In this document: piece after piece, positions 2,005 through 11,486 of the stretch | Layout of the letters: the number at the start of each line of letters is the position of its first letter | Numbering within the stretch: position 1 is the first letter of the stretch | Origin: Kaistia dalseonensis | GTDB taxonomy: Bacteria; Pseudomonadota; Alphaproteobacteria; Rhizobiales; Kaistiaceae | DNA: 64,000 nucleotides | Direction of reading: 5' to 3' | NCBI RefSeq assembly: GCF_030814715.1 | Contig: NZ_JAUSVO010000004.1 | Location: 1-64,000 of the forward strand | Made by a program: the position numbers and the translations under genes | Notes under the pieces: generated by a model | Told to the model about the DNA's origin: nothing | The model's input: only the letters and a program-made list of their open reading frames with translations | Databases searched by the model: none

Positions 2005-2373
2005 CTACGGTTGCGATCGATCGGGCGCAGTCTTGTTCTGGGATGCCAGCCGCATCTCGCGCAGCACCCATTTCTGCGAGTCGTCCGGGACGAAGAAGCC
2101 GCCGATCCCGGACGAAAACAGGAGGTCGAGCGACTGTTCCGTCACGCGGGTCAACTCCAGTTCGAGGTCCTGGCCCTTCGCCGGCCTGGGCGGCACCATG
2201 ATGACGATCGTGTCCTCCGCCTGCTCGATGATCTCGATCTTCAGATCCGGTCCCGGCGTGTAGCCGAACTCTTCGCAGACGACTTTGACCGGGTCGGCAA
2301 GCAGTCGGGCCCGGTAGGCCGGATCGGTCGCGATCCGCTCATAATATTGTTCGACGAAGTCGGGGCTGCTCAT
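2005..2373 (-). CDS. Small NHLP-like (nitrile hydratase leader-like) protein, copy 2
   Basis: A 122-residue protein whose first 60 residues follow the NHLP leader pattern: an amphipathic start, DPAYRARLLADP, then EEFGYTPGPDLKIEIIEQ and VMVPPRP. This layout is known from leaders of some ribosomally made peptides and from the N-terminal region of nitrile hydratase alpha. The tail (about residues 75-110) has LDLLFSSGIGGFFVP and then WVLREMR, resembling the tail of the preceding gene. It has one cysteine and no nitrile hydratase metal-binding cysteine cluster. Its ATG overlaps the stop of the upstream paralogue (ATGA), so the two are likely translated together, possibly as partners. No modifying enzyme or peptidase-transporter is nearby, so a RiPP role is unproven. 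Confidence 0.72.
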   Translation of the reverse strand: MSSPDFVEQYYERIATDPAYRARLLADPVKVVCEEFGYTPGPDLKIEIIEQAEDTIVIMVPPRPAKGQDLELELTRVTEQSLDLLFSSGIGGFFVPDDSQKWVLREMRLASQNKTAPDRSQP

Positions 2374-2705
2374 GAGCGCTCTCCCGCCTCGCGCGCCGCG
2401 CTGCGCAGGGCGAGCAACTGGAACTTTGCAGCGACAGGAACCAGCCAGATGAACAGCCCCTTGCTTGACCAGAGGTCGAACTGGTTGAGCGGCGCCGATG
2501 GCGCCGGCGATTCGGGAGCCCGCATGGGCGGAATTGTGAAATAGAGCCTGTCGGGCTGTTGCACGACGACCTTCACCTTCACGCCGGGCGGCACCGATAC
2601 GCCCATCGACTGGAGCGCCTCGACAGGGTTGCTTTCCAGTCGCGTCGCGAACGCGTCATCCGACCAAACGCGCTTCGTCAGTTCTCGTTCAAAATCTCCG
2701 GTCAT
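2370..2705 (-). CDS. Small NHLP-like (nitrile hydratase leader-like) protein, copy 1
   Basis: A 111-residue protein with an NHLP-type N-terminal half: KRVWSDDAFATRLESNP, EALQSMGVSVPPGVKVKVV and YFTIPP end near residue 60. A proline- and alanine-rich linker (APESPAPSAP) follows, then a hydrophobic tail FDLWSSKGLFIWLVP with LLALR. The tail matches the next gene in pattern (xDL, S, G, VP, L..R), so the two are probably paralogues rather than a leader with a variable core. There are no cysteines. It starts 33 nt downstream of the Dld-type dehydrogenase gene and ends in a 4-nt overlap with the second copy. The C-terminal hydrophobic stretch could contact a membrane or a partner protein. The function is unknown. 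Confidence 0.72.
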   Translation of the reverse strand: MTGDFERELTKRVWSDDAFATRLESNPVEALQSMGVSVPPGVKVKVVVQQPDRLYFTIPPMRAPESPAPSAPLNQFDLWSSKGLFIWLVPVAAKFQLLALRSAAREAGERS

Positions 2706-2738: not shown

Positions 2739-4535
2739 TCAGCCTTCGCAGCGGAGTTCGCGTGGCGGGGGAGCACCACCGGGCCCCCAATGCGCGCATT
2801 TGGTGGTGCGGCCGATGCCTGGATTGAAGGTGTTGCAAGGGTCGAGCGCCTTGAAATGGTCTAGCATCGCCCGCTTCGCGAAATAGAGATGCCCCACATT
2901 GTGCTCGGCAGGATATTCCGCGCCGCGTCCGTCGAGGAGCTTCCACATGGCGTGCTCGATCGCCTCGCAATTGCTGCCCTTGGCCACGATGTAGTCCTGG
3001 TGGAAGACGTGGCAGAAGAAGTGACCGCAATAGAGCTTGTGGATCAGATGCTTGTCGATCTCCTCGGGCAGCGTCTCGAACCAGTTCTGGTCGTTGCGGC
3101 GCAGCGCGATGTCGAGCGCCACAATGTCCTCGACCTCCTTATCGCGCACCGCGCGATAGCGGATGGCGGCGCCGGCCGCCGCGAAGCGGTGCAGGAAGGC
3201 CTTGTCGCCTTCGTCAGGCGAGCATTCGAAGTAGTCACCGGTCTTCGAGGGGAAGATCGACTTGAGGTAAGCGCGCGCTTCCCCAATTCCCTCATCGCCC
3301 ATCTTCAGCAGAAGATAGTGCTCGAAGCGGTCGCGATAGTCGGTCATTCGCTTGGGTAGATGCTTCGGGAAGAGATGACTCAGTGCCTGCAGCATCTTGG
3401 CGCTGAGGTTCTTCGGCAGAAACGCGATCCGCCGGCAGAAATTGTCGAATGCCGCCTGGAGCGCGAACAGCTGCGGGATCCTGTCGGTGCCGAGATATTG
3501 GATTACCAGGAAGGTGTCCTTGCCGTAGACCTCCGCACAATCGAAGGAACCCCGGTGCATGTACTCGCCCTCGATCGGCAGCGTCTTGAAGCTCTGGAGG
3601 ATGTGGCGGCGGATGCTTTCGAGCTCTCCGGTGTCGTTTGAGCCGATGTAGAAGACCACCTCCTCCTTCTCTTTCGGGAAAGTGTCGAGGCGCACCGCCA
3701 TGAGCATCACCTTGCCGGCGCTCCCGGAGGCCTCGAACAGTCGGCGCGGATCGGCATTGAAGCGGGACGGCGTTGCCGCCTCGATGTCACGCACATGGTC
3801 GGCATAGTCGTGGTCGGAGGCGGCGCGGGCGGGGTCGTTGACGATGTCGGAGGGCTTGAAATCGCCGTTCTCGACCCGCCGAAGGATCGTCTCCGGATCA
3901 TTGCCCAGCGCTATGCCGAGATGATTGACGAGATGCAGCGCTCCTGTCTCGTCCAGCCGCGCGAACAGGGCTAGCTGGGTGAAAGCCGGGCCGCGATGGA
4001 TCAGGGCGCCGCCGGAATTGTTGCAGATGCCGCCGAACACCGAGGCGCCGATGCAGGACGAGCCGATGACCGAGTGCGGCGCGCGTCCGATTCTGTCCAA
4101 CGCCTTTTCGAGTTGAAACAAGGTGGCACCCGGCAGACACACCACCTGAGTCCCGTCGTTGATCAGGTGAAGACCCTCGATCCGCATCGTATTGATGAGC
4201 ACCACGCCACGGTCGTAGTCATCCCTATCCGGGCTCGACCCACCGGTTACGCCGGTATTGGCCGACTGCATGATGATGATCTTGTCCGCCGCGACGCAGG
4301 CCTTGAGCACACGCCATTGCTCCACGAGCGAGCCCGGCCGCACCACGGCGACCACCGGGCCGCTGCCGAAGCGGATCCCCGTCCGGAAACGCCGCGTGGC
4401 GTCGGGACTCGTCAGGACGTACCGGTCCCCCACGATCCCCTGAATCTGCCGGATGAACGCGGCGTCATCATCGGCCGTACGGTCCGGTGTCCGTTGGCCC
4501 GATGGCTCGGCGACGTCGAGGAATGCAGCATCCAT
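2739..4535 (-). CDS. dld: Dld-type FAD-linked D-2-hydroxyacid (D-lactate) dehydrogenase
   Basis: A 598-residue flavoprotein closely resembling the quinone-dependent D-lactate dehydrogenase Dld. The N-terminal PCMH-type FAD domain (about residues 30-300) contains MQSANTGVTGGSSP and GGICNNSGGALIHRGPAF. The C-terminal part has the Dld hallmarks GHFFCHVFHQDYIVAKG, EYPAEHNVGHLY and FNPGIGRT. I chose the ATG at 4535, preceded by GGAG at a good distance, over an upstream in-frame ATG at 4610, because it matches the family N-terminus. In Dld the enzyme is a peripheral inner-membrane protein passing electrons to quinone. Next to a benzoylformate decarboxylase it may oxidise D-mandelate or a similar 2-hydroxyacid to the 2-oxoacid; that substrate is my inference. 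Confidence 0.88.
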   Translation of the reverse strand: MDAAFLDVAEPSGQRTPDRTADDDAAFIRQIQGIVGDRYVLTSPDATRRFRTGIRFGSGPVVAVVRPGSLVEQWRVLKACVAADKIIIMQSANTGVTGGSSPDRDDYDRGVVLINTMRIEGLHLINDGTQVVCLPGATLFQLEKALDRIGRAPHSVIGSSCIGASVFGGICNNSGGALIHRGPAFTQLALFARLDETGALHLVNHLGIALGNDPETILRRVENGDFKPSDIVNDPARAASDHDYADHVRDIEAATPSRFNADPRRLFEASGSAGKVMLMAVRLDTFPKEKEEVVFYIGSNDTGELESIRRHILQSFKTLPIEGEYMHRGSFDCAEVYGKDTFLVIQYLGTDRIPQLFALQAAFDNFCRRIAFLPKNLSAKMLQALSHLFPKHLPKRMTDYRDRFEHYLLLKMGDEGIGEARAYLKSIFPSKTGDYFECSPDEGDKAFLHRFAAAGAAIRYRAVRDKEVEDIVALDIALRRNDQNWFETLPEEIDKHLIHKLYCGHFFCHVFHQDYIVAKGSNCEAIEHAMWKLLDGRGAEYPAEHNVGHLYFAKRAMLDHFKALDPCNTFNPGIGRTTKCAHWGPGGAPPPRELRCEG

Positions 4536-4606
4536 AGAGATTGCTCCAGGGAGTGATGGCTGGCCGACAGGGCAAGGGTAGCTCCGATCGCCGAACCGGC
4601 GAGCCA

Positions 4607-6106
4607 TCAAGCCGGCGGCGGGGCGATTCCCGTCGGCGCCGCATACCCCGCCAGATAATTGGCGACCGCCTGCCAGTCCTCCGTCGGCGCGGACATCGCC
4701 AGATAGCCGTCCGGCCGGACGAGGGTGAGACGCCCCGCAGCCTTCGCCGCACGAAGCTGCGGCTCCAGCAGGGCCGGGAACTGCGACAACAGCGACGCGG
4801 CGCCCTCGCCGGTGCCATGCAGGCTGAAGCGCGGTGAATCGGCCCCGCCATAGGGTGCCTCGTCGACTGCAGGCGGCACGCGGGCGCCGACAGCGGCAGC
4901 GGTGCCGCCGTCCGACGGTCCGTTCAGCGGGCTCTGCGGATAGCCGATCGCGACCTCGGTGATCATCCCGGCAATGGCATGCTGGGCGGGCGCGAGGCCG
5001 AGGACGAGATGCGCGACGAAATTGCGAACATCCTGCAGGGCGTGGTTTTCGAGGGTCGCGGCCTTGGTCAGCCGGCCGGATTCCTGGATCACCTCGGCTC
5101 CGACGGGCCGGCGCTCGGCGTCGTAGCTGTCGAGCAGCACGGGGGCGGCCGAGATGCCGCGGGCCACGAGAGCCAGCTTCCAGGCGAGGTTGATCGCATC
5201 CTGCATGCCGGTGTTCATGCCCTGTCCGCCGGCCGGGCTGTGCACATGGGCGGCATCGCCGGCGAGGAAGATCCGGCCGGACCGATAGGAACCGACCTGA
5301 CGCTCATTGATACGGAAGGCGCTGGTCCACACCGTGTCCGTCAGCGTGATGCCGCCGGGACCGCGGCGATCGATCACCTTCTGGAAGGCGTCGAGGTCGA
5401 GCGGCACCGGCTCGACGTCGCTCGATGGGCCGAGGCTCGTGATGATGCGATAGCGGTCCGCCGCCATCGGGAAGAACATCAGCGCCCCTTCCGGATGCCA
5501 GAAGATGGCGAGCTCCGAGGAGGGGATCGGCATGCCGGTCAGGTGAAAATCACCCTGTGTCCAGTCGAGGCCCAATGTGTCGCCCTCGAATTCGAGGCCG
5601 AGGCGATGGCGGACGACGCTGTGCGATCCGTCGCAGGCGACGAGCCAGTCGAAGCGCTCCGCCGTTTCCGTCCCGTCGCCGGCGCGCAACGTCGCGGTGA
5701 CGCCGTCTTTATCCTGCGCGATGTCGGCAAGCTCCGTGGAGAATTGCGGCTCGATACCGTGCGCTTTCAGGTGGCGGCGCAGCACGCCTTCCGTCTCGTA
5801 TTGCGGCGCCATCAGTGCGAAGGGGAAGGGCGACGTGATTCCGTCGAGCTTGATCTGCCCGACCCGGCTGTTGCCGGAGAAGATGTTGGCTGCGACGACG
5901 TGGTTGCCCGCTTTGACGAGGTCACCTGCCACGCCTGAACGATCGAGCAGTTCGAGCGTCCGCGGCCAGATGGCGACGGCACGCGACGTGTCGGAGGGGC
6001 CCGCGATCTTGTCGATCACGCGGACCGGAACGCCGTAGCGGGCAAGCTCCATCGCCATCGTCAAACCGACCGGCCCGGCGCCAGCCACGAGAACGCGATC
6101 CGTCAT
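4607..6106 (-). CDS. FAD-dependent aromatic monooxygenase (PheA/TfdB family)
   Basis: A 499-residue class A flavoprotein hydroxylase. GAGPVG at residues 9-14 binds the ADP part of FAD, the DG motif is at about 159-160 (ACDGSHSVVRHRLG), and the second FAD motif GDAAHVHSPAGGQGMNTG is near 283-300, followed by DAINLAWKLA. The C-terminal thioredoxin-like region is present but short, with LVRPDGYLA near the end. Relatives hydroxylate phenols, resorcinols, anthraquinones and similar rings using NAD(P)H and O2. A GGGGAGA ribosome site precedes the ATG. It lies 71 nt upstream of dld in the same direction and downstream of a hairpin that closes the Spy-like gene, so it probably starts its own transcript. 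The exact substrate cannot be read from the sequence. Confidence 0.88.
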   Translation of the reverse strand: MTDRVLVAGAGPVGLTMAMELARYGVPVRVIDKIAGPSDTSRAVAIWPRTLELLDRSGVAGDLVKAGNHVVAANIFSGNSRVGQIKLDGITSPFPFALMAPQYETEGVLRRHLKAHGIEPQFSTELADIAQDKDGVTATLRAGDGTETAERFDWLVACDGSHSVVRHRLGLEFEGDTLGLDWTQGDFHLTGMPIPSSELAIFWHPEGALMFFPMAADRYRIITSLGPSSDVEPVPLDLDAFQKVIDRRGPGGITLTDTVWTSAFRINERQVGSYRSGRIFLAGDAAHVHSPAGGQGMNTGMQDAINLAWKLALVARGISAAPVLLDSYDAERRPVGAEVIQESGRLTKAATLENHALQDVRNFVAHLVLGLAPAQHAIAGMITEVAIGYPQSPLNGPSDGGTAAAVGARVPPAVDEAPYGGADSPRFSLHGTGEGAASLLSQFPALLEPQLRAAKAAGRLTLVRPDGYLAMSAPTEDWQAVANYLAGYAAPTGIAPPPA

Positions 6107-6243: not shown

Positions 6244-6741
6244 CTACTGCTCTTCCTCGAACAACCAAAGCTCGGCGGTCGGCTGCGGGACGCCATTGAT
6301 CGCCTCGCGCAGACCAAGGAAGGCCGGAATGCGGCGCTGCTGCTCGGGCGTCAGCGACGCGACCAGCGGCTTCAAGGCCTCGACAACCATCTTGAGTTCG
6401 GCGGCACGCGTCGCTTCCGCGTCAGCCGTCCGCTCCAGAATGTCGACGAAGCTTGTCGGCTCCGGCGCCTCGGCGCGCTGTGCCCGGCGCTGTGCCGAAC
6501 TGGCGGCCGCCTGACGGATGGCCGCTTCCACGGGCGCCCACAGCTTTTCCTGTTCGGGCGAGAGACCGATCACGGTCTTGAGCGCGATGATGCGGGCATC
6601 GAGCACGGCCTGCGCATCGGCAGGCGCGTAAAGCTCGACCGCGGGGGGCTCGGGCGGTTGAGGCGTGTCATCGGCGAAAGCCGGAGGTGCCAACGCGAGG
6701 AACGCGCCGAGCGCGATGGTGGTCAGGAGCGTTGTTTTCAT
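6244..6741 (-). CDS. Exported Spy/CpxP (LTXXQ) family protein
   Basis: A 165-residue protein with a clear Sec signal peptide (MKTTLLTTIALGAFLALAPP, cleavage after AFA near residue 23). The mature part is mostly helical and charged and contains two LTXXQ-type motifs, LSPEQEKLW and LTPEQQRR, the hallmark of the Spy/CpxP periplasmic chaperone family. An alanine- and arginine-rich helix (AASSAQRRAQRAEA) lies between them. Family members buffer periplasmic protein misfolding, often under metal or solvent stress. It follows a small repeat protein gene by 48 nt and is closed by a hairpin, so these two exported proteins probably share a transcript inside the aromatic-acid cluster. The function is inferred from the family only. 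Confidence 0.8.
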   Translation of the reverse strand: MKTTLLTTIALGAFLALAPPAFADDTPQPPEPPAVELYAPADAQAVLDARIIALKTVIGLSPEQEKLWAPVEAAIRQAAASSAQRRAQRAEAPEPTSFVDILERTADAEATRAAELKMVVEALKPLVASLTPEQQRRIPAFLGLREAINGVPQPTAELWLFEEEQ

Positions 6742-6789: not shown

Positions 6790-7128
6790 TTACTGCCAAC
6801 CGCCGCCCGGGAGACGGCCATGATAGGGCGTATCGCGGCAATGGCCCCAGGGTCCACGCCAATAGCCGGGCGGGCAGCCATTGCCGAAATAGCCGTAGGC
6901 GGGCGGATAGTTGTAGGCCCAGCCGCCGCCCGGCAGGCGGCCCGTATAGGGCGTGTCGCGGCAATGGCCCCATGGTCCGCGCCATGCATAGGGACCGCAG
7001 CCCTGGGCGACGCGGACGATGTTGGAGTCGGGGGCTTCGATCGGCACCGTGATCGGTGCTGCCACGGCCGGGAGCCCGCATAGGGCGGTGAGGCCAAGAA
7101 CGACGAGATGGGTGAGTTTCGTTCGCAT
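6790..7128 (-). CDS. Exported small repeat protein (GCG_CRPN-like)
   Basis: A protein of about 112 residues with a signal peptide (MRTKLTHLVVLGLTALCGLPAVA), a short spacer ending in RVAQGCGPY, and two near-identical copies of a module reading GPWGHCRDTPY, one residue, then GRLPGGGW. A tyrosine- and proline-rich linker (YNYPPAYGYFGNGCPPG) separates the repeats. The GCG start followed by Gly/Arg/Trp/Cys repeats recalls the GCG_CRPN prefix-to-repeats proteins of alphaproteobacteria, whose function is unknown. I chose the ATG at 7128 because GGAG lies just upstream and the signal peptide begins there; an earlier ATG at 7176 would add 16 charged residues. The four repeat-region cysteines suggest disulfides or metal binding in the periplasm. 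Confidence 0.72.
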   Translation of the reverse strand: MRTKLTHLVVLGLTALCGLPAVAAPITVPIEAPDSNIVRVAQGCGPYAWRGPWGHCRDTPYTGRLPGGGWAYNYPPAYGYFGNGCPPGYWRGPWGHCRDTPYHGRLPGGGWQ

Positions 7129-7226
7129 TGCAGTTTTCTCCACAAAGGGTGGGTTCTGGAACTTCTGCTTCGGCACAGGCCGGCGGGCTCTCGCCGGTCA
7201 TTCTTCAATCAAGGCCCAATAGGCCG

Positions 7227-7266: not shown

Positions 7267-8973
<1,707 letters not shown>

Positions 8974-9456
8974 TCATTCGGTCGGCGCCTCATCCCGCTT
9001 CACCGGAGGCCCAAGGAACTCGACCTGCCACTTGATGCCGAACGCGTTCAGCGCCTCGGTGTCGGGAATGCCATTGTGCATCACGCCGCCAAGCTCGGTG
9101 AAGAAGGTAGCGGCGTCGAGCGCCGGCGTCATGAGGATATACTGGCGTGCCGGCGCGTCGGTCACATTGACGAAGCCGTGCTCGACGCCGCCCGGAATAC
9201 AGACCACATCTCCTTCCTCCGCATAGAAGCGTCGTCCATCCGCCTCATAGAGATACCGTCCCTCGATGACGCGGAAGATCTCCGCTTCGGGATGACGATG
9301 GCGCGGCGGGCCGAAGCCCGGCGCATTGATCGTCTCGATGAAGCAGAATTCCCCGCCGCTCGCGGCAGGCGGCATCCTGACGAACAGATCGAGCCCGATC
9401 GCCGGGATCTTGATGGGAAGCTCGGTTCCCTTGGAATGCAGGAAGGTGATACTCAT
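8974..9456 (-). CDS. Single-domain cupin protein
   Basis: A 160-residue cupin. Motif 1 is PPRHRHPEAEIFRVIEG with two histidines and a glutamate as metal ligands, and motif 2 is GDVVCIPGGVEHGFVN with the third histidine. Small cupins with this arrangement include quercetinase-like dioxygenases and metal-dependent isomerases, and others only bind small molecules. The ATG at 9456 is preceded by GAGGGATATC. A gap of about 200 nt upstream carries the second copy of the 20-bp dyad, suggesting its own regulated promoter. The placement between mdlC and a tautomerase gene argues for a catabolic enzyme role; the reaction is unknown. Confidence 0.8.
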   Translation of the reverse strand: MSITFLHSKGTELPIKIPAIGLDLFVRMPPAASGGEFCFIETINAPGFGPPRHRHPEAEIFRVIEGRYLYEADGRRFYAEEGDVVCIPGGVEHGFVNVTDAPARQYILMTPALDAATFFTELGGVMHNGIPDTEALNAFGIKWQVEFLGPPVKRDEAPTE

Positions 9457-9658: not shown

Positions 9659-10270
9659 TCAATCCGGTCGGCGGCCCGCCTTCTGCTCGTCCGAAATCGC
9701 CGTCGCGGCTTCGCCTTCGACACCCGTCATGATGCCGCCGGCGTCGGCCGGATAGCCCGCGGATCGCCGTTCCCGGGCCTTTGCCGCGAAATAGGCCGTC
9801 GTCCAGCCGAAGCGCTCGCTCGTCGCAGGGAGCCCGACGGAGGTGGCGATCGACGCCATACCGATCGGCTTGCCCGCGCACCCCCAACTGCCCTCGGTCA
9901 CCTCTTCGATGACTGTCAGGATGCTCTTTCCGGTCTCTGCCGTGTTCGGGGGTCTCTTGACGTCGAGAATGGCCTGGCCGACGAGAGCGTGGACCTCGTT
10001 CTTGTGATCCGTATTCATGTATCCCTCGGGAATGAGGACGCGAACGAGGAAACGTCCGGGGGAGCGGACATAGGTGTCGTCGGTCTCTCCGCCGACCCAC
10101 CAATCATCCTTGGGCACCTCGCGGAAGATGACCCAGGCGAAGGCGCGTCCGCCGAAGGTATCGGCACCGCCCTCCATATCGATCATGACGGCAGTCAGGC
10201 GCCGGGCCAGATCGGCCTTCGCGACTGGCTCGAGATCTCCGGCATGATAGTGGACTTCCATGATCGGCAT
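9659..10270 (-). CDS. Tautomerase-superfamily-like protein
   Basis: A 203-residue protein starting MPIMEVHYHAG. After removal of Met this exposes the N-terminal proline used as general base by 4-oxalocrotonate tautomerase relatives. DLARRLTAVMIDMEG and AWVIFREVPKDDWWVGG follow the beta-alpha-beta order of the fold, and the length suggests two fused units, the second around TAETGKSILTVIEEV. The start at 10270 is set by GGAG 7 nt upstream; the longer frame has no family similarity. It lies between a pirin-like and a cupin gene. Superfamily members isomerise or dehalogenate unsaturated acids from ring cleavage. The call is moderately firm; the substrate is unknown. Confidence 0.68.
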   Translation of the reverse strand: MPIMEVHYHAGDLEPVAKADLARRLTAVMIDMEGGADTFGGRAFAWVIFREVPKDDWWVGGETDDTYVRSPGRFLVRVLIPEGYMNTDHKNEVHALVGQAILDVKRPPNTAETGKSILTVIEEVTEGSWGCAGKPIGMASIATSVGLPATSERFGWTTAYFAAKARERRSAGYPADAGGIMTGVEGEAATAISDEQKAGRRPD

Positions 10271-10437: not shown

Positions 10438-11241
10438 TCAGTGGCCGGCATGTTCGCTCTCCCATGTCTTGATGTTCGCCTCGTCGATCATGATCGTCTC
10501 GACGATAAGGATGTCGCTGTCGTCGTCGAGGATATCGATGTCGACCGCCGCGACGCCCGAAAGGCCCATGCTGTCGCGGTAGCCCAGTTCCTCACCGGCG
10601 CAGCCGATCCGACCCTCGCGGACGAAGACATAGGCGCCATGCGAGGCGGTCCGCGGCGCGTAGCGGAAGCTGCGCCCCCTGTCGGCGATCAGTCGTGAAA
10701 CGCGAAGATCCTGCGGGATCGGCAGCGCGCCGTCTCCGTCGCCGACCAGCATCACAATCTCGTTGCGGCGGCGGCGGAAATCGAAATGGCCGCGATGATA
10801 GGCCGGCGGCAGATAGAGCTGCTCCGGCATCACCCAGAGATAGATCGCCTGCATGTCCTCGGTGGTGATGGAAAGCTCGGAATGCTTGCCGCCCGAGCCG
10901 GCCGAGAAGACGTAATAATCGCCTGCCCGAAGCTGGTCGACCATGCCCTCGCCCGCCGTGTTCACATGCGTGAGCTGACCGCCGAACACGAAGGCGCAGA
11001 TGGCGAAGTTGTGGTGAGGATGCATGTTGTAGCCGCAGCCGGCGCCGTGAAACACCTCGTCCCCGAAGACGCGGATGGTACCGAAGCCCGGGCGCCCGCC
11101 CTGATATTCATGGAAGTTGAAGCTCGAGGCCCTGGTGACGAAGCCGTCCGGGTGGCCGGCGATGTAGGAGGACCGCGACCCGTCGGACTTGATCAGGTCG
11201 TGACCGCGCTCCTCGTTGCGGAGGATGAAGGACTGGCTCAT
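10438..11241 (-). CDS. Pirin-like bicupin protein
   Basis: A 267-residue bicupin resembling pirins. The N-terminal half has FGTIRVFGDEVFHGAG, then YNMHPHHNFAICAFVFGGQLTHVN with the clustered histidines that bind iron in pirin, and AGDYYVFSAGSGGKHSE as second cupin motif. The C-terminal half is a degenerate cupin. Bacterial pirins include quercetinases and regulators of central metabolism. The start at 11241 is supported by AGGA about 9 nt upstream; a further in-frame ATG at 11271 would overlap the rubredoxin stop. It directly follows rubredoxin, and the pair is probably co-transcribed from the promoter near 11510. Confidence 0.78.
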   Translation of the reverse strand: MSQSFILRNEERGHDLIKSDGSRSSYIAGHPDGFVTRASSFNFHEYQGGRPGFGTIRVFGDEVFHGAGCGYNMHPHHNFAICAFVFGGQLTHVNTAGEGMVDQLRAGDYYVFSAGSGGKHSELSITTEDMQAIYLWVMPEQLYLPPAYHRGHFDFRRRRNEIVMLVGDGDGALPIPQDLRVSRLIADRGRSFRYAPRTASHGAYVFVREGRIGCAGEELGYRDSMGLSGVAAVDIDILDDDSDILIVETIMIDEANIKTWESEHAGH

Positions 11242-11267: not shown

Positions 11268-11486
11268 TCATGCATTCCGCGCCATATCGGCGCCGCCCGT
11301 GGCGTAGCCGATGACGATCATTTCGAAGAGGTGCTTGGGTGTGCCGCAATCGGGGCAGACCCAGTCGTCCGGAATGTCCGCCCAACGTGTGCCGGGCGCG
11401 ATGCCGTGCTCGGGCAGGCCGAGCATCTCGTCATAGGAAAAACCGCAGCCGAGACACATCAGCCGCTTGTAGGGTTCATCCGCCAT
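11268..11486 (-). CDS. Rubredoxin
   Basis: A 72-residue rubredoxin with both iron-binding knuckles, MCLGCGFSYDE and VCPDCGTPKHLFE, spaced as in the family. It carries one electron at the Fe(Cys)4 centre and usually serves an oxygenase or peroxide-reducing enzyme. It is the first gene of the minus-strand cluster, about 20 nt downstream of two GntR-type sites, which suggests it heads the induced transcript. The electron partner is not obvious in the window; the flavin monooxygenase here should not need one. Confidence 0.92.
   Translation of the reverse strand: MADEPYKRLMCLGCGFSYDEMLGLPEHGIAPGTRWADIPDDWVCPDCGTPKHLFEMIVIGYATGGADMARNA

Follow-up and report, generated by a model that had tools for sequence, protein, structure and literature searches.

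The window analysed here, the first 64,000 nucleotides of contig NZ_JAUSVO010000004.1 (contig C4) of Kaistia dalseonensis, carries on its minus strand two adjacent genes for small nitrile hydratase (NHase)-alpha/NHLP-like proteins, hereafter P2 and P1. P2 (2370–2705; 111 aa) is the first of the pair and ends in the conserved tail NQ.DLW.S....W..P...K..LL..R, and P1 (2005–2373; 122 aa) is the second and ends in the conserved tail D.L...G.GG...PD....W.LR..R; the two genes overlap by 4 bases. P1 contains a single cysteine, C33, within its head, and a GG pair at residues 91–92, inside the conserved tail; P2 has neither cysteine nor GG. Searches of P1 and P2 with defence-system models give no match.

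All neighbouring genes described here also lie on the minus strand. Downstream of P1 is a CocE/NonD family hydrolase (Peptidase_S15; 128–1942), and as the window starts at base 1 of C4, the far side of this gene falls outside the readable sequence of the genome. Upstream of P2, a D-lactate dehydrogenase (Dld)-type FAD enzyme (2739–4610) lies between P2 and a class A FAD monooxygenase (4607–6106), whose nearest solved relatives are polyketide hydroxylases and rifampin monooxygenase; the Dld-type gene is missing from this position in the same-genus relatives L005–L007. Farther along lie an LTXXQ-motif protein (6244–6741), found within 10 kb of P1 in 13 of the 56 loci compared below, a benzoylformate decarboxylase (7267–8973; solved benzoylformate decarboxylases at E 5e-229) and a cupin (8974–9456), followed by a tautomerase-family protein (tblastn range 9728–10270), a pirin-family protein (10447–11241) and a rubredoxin (11271–11480), the latter three located by tblastn similarity to annotated genes of the plasmid locus L010. 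These assignments confirm the CocE hydrolase and flavin enzymes that a first-pass annotation of the window had named as neighbours. The small Gly/Tyr-rich protein encoded at 6790–7176 comprises two similar repeats and is probably exported; it has no Pfam match, and a similar sequence occurs in nine loci including the window.

P1 and P2 heads are related to nitrile hydratase alpha and NHLP leaders

The first-pass annotation proposed that the heads of both proteins follow the NHLP pattern, and profile searches with NHLP and NHase alpha models bear this out, with the single sequences scoring under the curated cut-offs. The TIGR03793 leader_NHLP model matches P1 at E 1e-5 (25.3 bits) and P2 at E 3.3e-12 (46.1 bits), both below its cut-off of 50.9, and the Pfam NHase_alpha model matches P1 at E 5.1e-6 (26.4 bits; cut-off 27.2) and P2 at E 0.005. 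Across the family, TIGR03793 recognizes 39 of 41 P1 members and all 34 P2 members at E ≤ 0.01; at the same threshold the Os1348 family model NF038399 recognizes 22 of 41 and 19 of 34, respectively, and TIGR03795 is weak, recognizing 5 of 41 and 1 of 34. The best PDB match of both family profiles is the NHase alpha chain 1v29 (E 1.9e-9 for P1 and 2.2e-9 for P2), both halves of which are matched by each profile. Based on this profile similarity, the P1 and P2 heads are assigned to the NHase-alpha/NHLP clan.

The pair nevertheless differs from NHase itself. Although its heads are homologous to both repeats of the NHase alpha chain 1v29 (PF02979, TIGR01323), P1 and P2 are two separate chains with extra conserved tails, and the metal motif CxxCxC is found in none of the 53 P1 rows and none of the 52 P2 rows of the alignments. 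The full-length model TIGR01323 gives 23.5 bits for P1 and 15.3 bits for P2, far from its cut-off of 249.85, and none of nine scanned neighbouring proteins matches NHase beta. The genome also encodes an NHase alpha with a CCTLCSC motif (C3:521472–521825), located on a different contig from the pair (L003, L004), which the P1 profile matches with 83% probability and E 9.1e-6 in hhalign.

When the P1 and P2 profiles are aligned with each other by hhalign, 110 columns including the tails are paired (probability 97%, E 1.2e-10), identifying the two proteins, at the level of sequence profiles, as paralogues.

The tails are more conserved than the heads

In known NHLP precursors, conservation stops at a Gly-Gly site and the core is hypervariable, according to the available part of PMC2887384. 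P1 and P2 do not display this organization in our tail-seeded sample. The mean pairwise identity of P1 is 0.654 in the tail (31 columns) compared with 0.483 in the head (62 columns; 53 rows), and that of P2 is 0.615 in the tail (27 columns) compared with 0.553 in the head (56 columns; 52 rows), with head-tail linkers omitted and L059, L061, L062 and L063 dropped, plus L064 for P2. The 50-locus scan described below was seeded with P1 tail motifs, a design that favours tail conservation and could miss variable-tail homologues, so part of the P1 contrast could reflect ascertainment. P2, which was never a seed, shows the same contrast in milder form. In seed-free searches, all ten plasmid records cover at least 80% of P1, and same-genus P1 matches span residue 1 or 3 to residues 119–122.

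The composition of the tails agrees with the earlier description of them as almost free of cysteine: the commonest cysteine column in any tail is occupied in 8 of 52 P2 rows. Ser, Thr and Cys together average 6.1 of the 50 positions after the head in P1 and 3.9 of 45 in P2. Two nucleophilic residues of the P2 tail, S81 and K94, are retained in 96% and 98% of rows, respectively; the P1 tail has no Ser, Lys or Cys position that reaches 90%. The claimed resemblance between the two tails finds mixed support. Collinearity, the 110-column alignment and the global profile score of the tails alone, which is reached by 0 of 300 controls with a best ungapped offset of +6, speak for it, whereas the local hhalign score of the tails alone is equalled by 19 of 200 column shuffles and is not significant.

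The predicted monomer structures are of middling confidence (pLDDT 68.7 and 73.9; pTM 0.53 and 0.64). Both models contain three N-terminal helices, a middle region to which no strands are assigned, and a tail composed of two strands and a C-terminal helix, with one additional helix at residues 70–78 in P1. The open middle region might be what the monomer of an obligate dimer would look like in such models. Foldseek returns no PDB match at E ≤ 0.001 for either model, a result that we do not read as a new fold. Among the matches listed, NHase alpha chains and 8tb1, the NMR structure of a proteusin precursor, rank best for P2, at E 0.48 and above, and those for P1 include no relative; residues 2–48 of P1 superimpose on 8tb1 with Z 3.1 over 46 residues (rmsd 3.8).

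P2 and P1 form a rare, widespread and nearly constant pair

The tail-seeded scan, run on one genome per species, yields 50 loci from Pseudomonadota, Actinomycetota, Bacillota and one Myxococcota bin, and plasmid copies occur in Methylocystis parvus, two Streptomyces and Neorhizobium. Our locus counts refer to 56 loci (the window, five plasmid loci and the 50 scan loci) with 57 P1 copies in total, and exclude L005–L007 as near-duplicates of L016, L019 and L027. For 52 of the 57 P1 copies, a P2 gene directly precedes P1 on the same strand, with a 4-base overlap in 33 of these 52. The remaining five comprise a fusion (L063), a longer overlap outside our cut (L064), a contig end (L061) and two degenerate copies (L059 and L062). 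The fusion, a 267-aa P2::P1 protein with P2 first (L063:9533–10336), is natural; in MAFFT alignments, the P1 rows and the P2 rows fall on one and the same half of it. P2 is also found in one open frame with RidA in eight Streptomyces loci, out of 17 loci containing both genes, and one of these eight frames is annotated as a single protein.

Searches with P1 alone in samples of whole genomes illustrate how sparsely the pair is distributed. Within the family of the window's species, 4 of 28 genomes match, all from the window's genus and including the window's own. A draw of 385 genomes from the class contains no match besides the window's genome itself (0 of the 384 others), and among 297 genomes from the order of the fusion genome, only the fusion genome does (0 of the 296 others). 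The pair is widespread yet rare, and nearly always complete. No description of such pairs or of their gene company appears among the best matches listed in the open-licence literature.

The pair is often accompanied by exchangeable hydrolases

The gene neighbourhoods were surveyed by reference-based tblastn, which sees only the chosen reference families. A CocE, alpha/beta hydrolase or nitrilase gene lies within 3 kb of the pair on the same strand in 46 of the 56 loci; these three hydrolases belong to unrelated families. Within 5 kb, CocE is the only kind in 25 loci, alpha/beta hydrolase in 13 and nitrilase in 5, while alpha/beta hydrolase and nitrilase co-occur in 2 and CocE and alpha/beta hydrolase in 1, so that 43 loci have one kind, 3 have two and 10 have none. 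Counting the window, 26 loci have a same-strand CocE gene within 5 kb of P1. No reference hydrolase was detected within 3 kb on the same strand in L012, L015, L031, L040 (Legionella), L042 (Pseudovibrio), L048, L051 (a Roseiarcus bin), L052 (Reyranella), L053 (Myxococcota) and L061; several of these ten loci are on short contigs, and not all are contig ends. The Legionella and Pseudovibrio loci returned none of the reference hydrolases, decarboxylase or monooxygenase by tblastn.

The oxidoreductase or decarboxylase nearby varies as well. A benzoylformate decarboxylase or FAD monooxygenase lies within 5 kb in 40 of the 56 loci and neither does in 16, and an FAD monooxygenase lies within 10 kb in 30. 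Assigning copies by the position of their own centres, either within 4 kb (421,077 bases) or farther out (576,722 bases), we counted 26 versus 1 copies of CocE, 19 versus 1 of alpha/beta hydrolase, 7 versus 1 of nitrilase, 16 versus 1 of RidA and 23 versus 3 of benzoylformate decarboxylase; FAD monooxygenase, with 22 versus 9, is the least clearly concentrated. On a quick tree of 52 pairs, CocE is combined with decarboxylase in most of a 19-member Pseudomonadota clade and a 6-member Actinomycetota clade, and hydrolase type requires 4 changes when two-kind loci are set to one.

The closest solved relative of the nitrilase in L056 is a cyanide dihydratase, and for the alpha/beta hydrolase in L014 the matches are an alpha/beta hydrolase, hydroxynitrile lyases and SABP2, with modest scores (E 1e-14 and weaker). 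Judged by these similarities, the nitrilase and the hydroxynitrile-lyase-like hydrolase hint that some of the loci deal with C–N or carbonyl chemistry. We considered, and did not adopt, a nitrile or cyanide pathway common to all loci, a same-strand nitrilase being present within 5 kb in 7 of 56.

In L014, L056 and L064, genes for TetR, IclR and MFS proteins adjoin the pair. The two Methylocystis parvus plasmids pMpar-1 and pMpar-2 (L010 and L011) both carry the array P2-P1-rubredoxin-pirin-tautomerase-CocE-small protein-GST-decarboxylase.

RiPP machinery is not found near the pair

Using 20 YcaO, LanC-like and C39 references, we obtained no tblastn match at E ≤ 1e-4 in 1.07 Mb of sequence comprising the window and 55 other loci, and in a positive control at the same database size every one of the 20 was recovered by another member of its own family. 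The cluster thus contains no RiPP enzyme or C39 transporter of the types covered by these flank searches (YcaO, LanC-like and C39). With a completeness rating of 100%, the window's genome lacks any YcaO, LanC-like, C39 or SPASM match, and the sole radical SAM match on contig C4, at 480936, is about 478 kb from the pair. We extended the genome-wide searches to 31 pair-bearing genomes (that of the window, three others from the same genus, and the genomes behind 27 of the 50 scan loci), of which 13 contain a YcaO match, 6 a LanC-like, 13 a C39 and 16 a SPASM match; 18 of the 31 are free of YcaO matches.

The absence of RiPP enzymes near the pair, as first noted from the window, therefore extends to the flanks of all 56 loci and to the window's genome for YcaO, LanC-like and C39. 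Homologues with variable tails beside RiPP synthetases were not found either, and the tails recovered, in a main search that was tail-seeded, are conserved.

Discussion

The reading that we favour, at slightly better than even chance, is that P2 and P1 constitute an obligate, metal-free, NHase-alpha-like heterodimer that is not a RiPP precursor and works next to a hydrolytic step in the catabolism or detoxification of small molecules. P2 and P1 would be two paralogous subunits of one protein, each consisting of one NHase-alpha/NHLP-like unit (three N-terminal helices and a strand region) and a conserved tail predicted to form a beta hairpin and a C-terminal helix. The overlapping genes are probably translationally coupled, and their products would form an obligate heterodimer that resembles a split, metal-free NHase alpha domain; NHase alpha itself contains two such units. 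The dimer would be a working component of the module, most likely an enzyme or a ligand-binding partner, acting beside the hydrolysis of an oxidised, probably aromatic, carbonyl or nitrogen-bearing compound, and the conserved tails may provide its functional surface.

The non-RiPP status and the pairing are well supported; the P1:P2 complex and its chemistry are inferred. The real profile similarity, the conserved tails and the lack of detected RiPP machinery nearby together support the initial suggestion of a non-RiPP use of the NHLP/NHase fold. The heterodimer, suggested at the same time, gains genetic support from the near-constant pairing, the gene overlap and the one natural fusion. A constant pair combined with an exchangeable hydrolase fits a component of a pathway in which each lineage's own enzyme hydrolyses the component's product or partner. 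A bolder version of this reading, in which the pair is a new metal-free enzyme family with a split NHase-alpha fold, is possible though rather doubtful: the two conserved tails would create a new catalytic site, and the intermediate acted on there (a nitrile, an imine or a carbonyl compound, undergoing hydration, deamination or a lyase reaction) would then pass to the lineage's hydrolase.

A role of the heterodimer as a dedicated chaperone or assembly factor of an adjacent oxidoreductase, decarboxylase or hydrolase seems unlikely to us. NHase activators are enzyme-specific chaperones and assembly factors, the small proteins do adjoin larger enzymes, and the RidA and P2 sequences in one frame tie P2 to an enzyme. 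According to PMC12455567, moreover, a structured NHLP interacts with its enzyme in the manner of a partner protein. Such a role is harder to reconcile with a hydrolase drawn from three unrelated families, an oxidoreductase or decarboxylase that varies too, and the Legionella and Pseudovibrio loci devoid of reference hydrolases, decarboxylase or monooxygenase. The chaperone idea raised in the first-pass annotation is thus the less favoured part of it, and the constant pair with its exchangeable hydrolase fits a pathway component better than a chaperone of one enzyme.

Two further explanations appear decidedly improbable to us. PQQ and mycofactocin precursors are conserved, and the pair might likewise be an unusual two-peptide RiPP precursor whose conserved tails are a fixed core modified by the nearby flavoenzymes or hydrolase. 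The match of the NHLP leader model to both heads and the FAD monooxygenase within 10 kb in 30 of 56 loci are compatible with this, as are the Burkholderia NHLPs, also tandem or fused pairs, which in the available part of PMC2887384 are located beside cyclodehydratase-docking proteins. However, conservation is higher in the tails than in the heads, the reverse of RiPP precursors, and the residues after the heads offer few Ser, Thr or Cys (on average 6.1 of 50 in P1 and 3.9 of 45 in P2). The enzymes are lacking as well: YcaO, LanC-like and C39 matches are absent from the 1.07 Mb around the 56 loci under a positive control, the pair's own genome is free of these and of SPASM with its contig's only radical SAM match some 478 kb off, and YcaO matches are absent from 18 of 31 searched genomes. 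At similarly long odds, the heterodimer could serve as a carrier: the substrate would be tethered to a conserved side chain during its modification and then freed by the neighbouring hydrolase. Unrelated hydrolases replacing one another next to a small protein pair that stays constant, and the conserved nucleophilic residues S81 and K94 in the P2 tail, would suit a carrier, but the P1 tail keeps no Ser, Lys or Cys in 90% of rows and a loading ligase was not noticed among the annotated genes of the plasmid loci.

The favoured metal-free heterodimer also stands apart from the described members of its clan. P1 and P2 resemble NHLP-type RiPP precursors and proteusins (TIGR03793) in head sequence, with a weak fit of P1 residues 2–48 to 8tb1, and are unlike them in scoring under the model's cut-off, in their conserved tails and in flanks without YcaO, LanC-like or C39. 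They share with the Burkholderia NHLP pairs (TIGR03795) the tandem arrangement and, in some species, the fusion; unlike P1 and P2, those pairs adjoin cyclodehydratase-docking proteins and one protein of each pair ends in Cys, according to the same part of PMC2887384. As far as the available part of PMC7726476 describes it, Os1348 (PDB 6lk7) is, like P1 and P2, an NHLP clan protein in which TOMM precursor motifs were not found, and it is a homodimer in the crystal. Unlike the pair, it is a single 85-aa protein of six helices whose gene neighbours are a GNAT acetyltransferase and efflux genes; it is linked to antibiotic activity, and its authors think that the protein is modified (PMC7726476, same part).

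The pair is new within the NHase-alpha/NHLP clan, itself a known fold clan, and represents a cross-phylum NHLP-headed group that is under another kind of selection and located beside catabolic enzymes. Annotation models use the NHLP head as a sign of a RiPP precursor, and the pair is easily misnamed automatically; an NHLP match alone does not equal a peptide natural product. The pair offers a testable case of NHase fold reuse and could be a new enzyme.

Two loci have unusual arrangements of the genes. In Streptomyces hygroscopicus (L062:9698–10138), the start of an FAD monooxygenase continues in frame into the P1 tail; P2 and the head of P1 were apparently lost by deletion, unless the assembly is at fault. 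In Nocardia transvalensis (L033:9609–12569), two P2-P1 pairs lie in opposite orientation within 3 kb, and a frame between them may encode a protein resembling phenolic acid decarboxylase.
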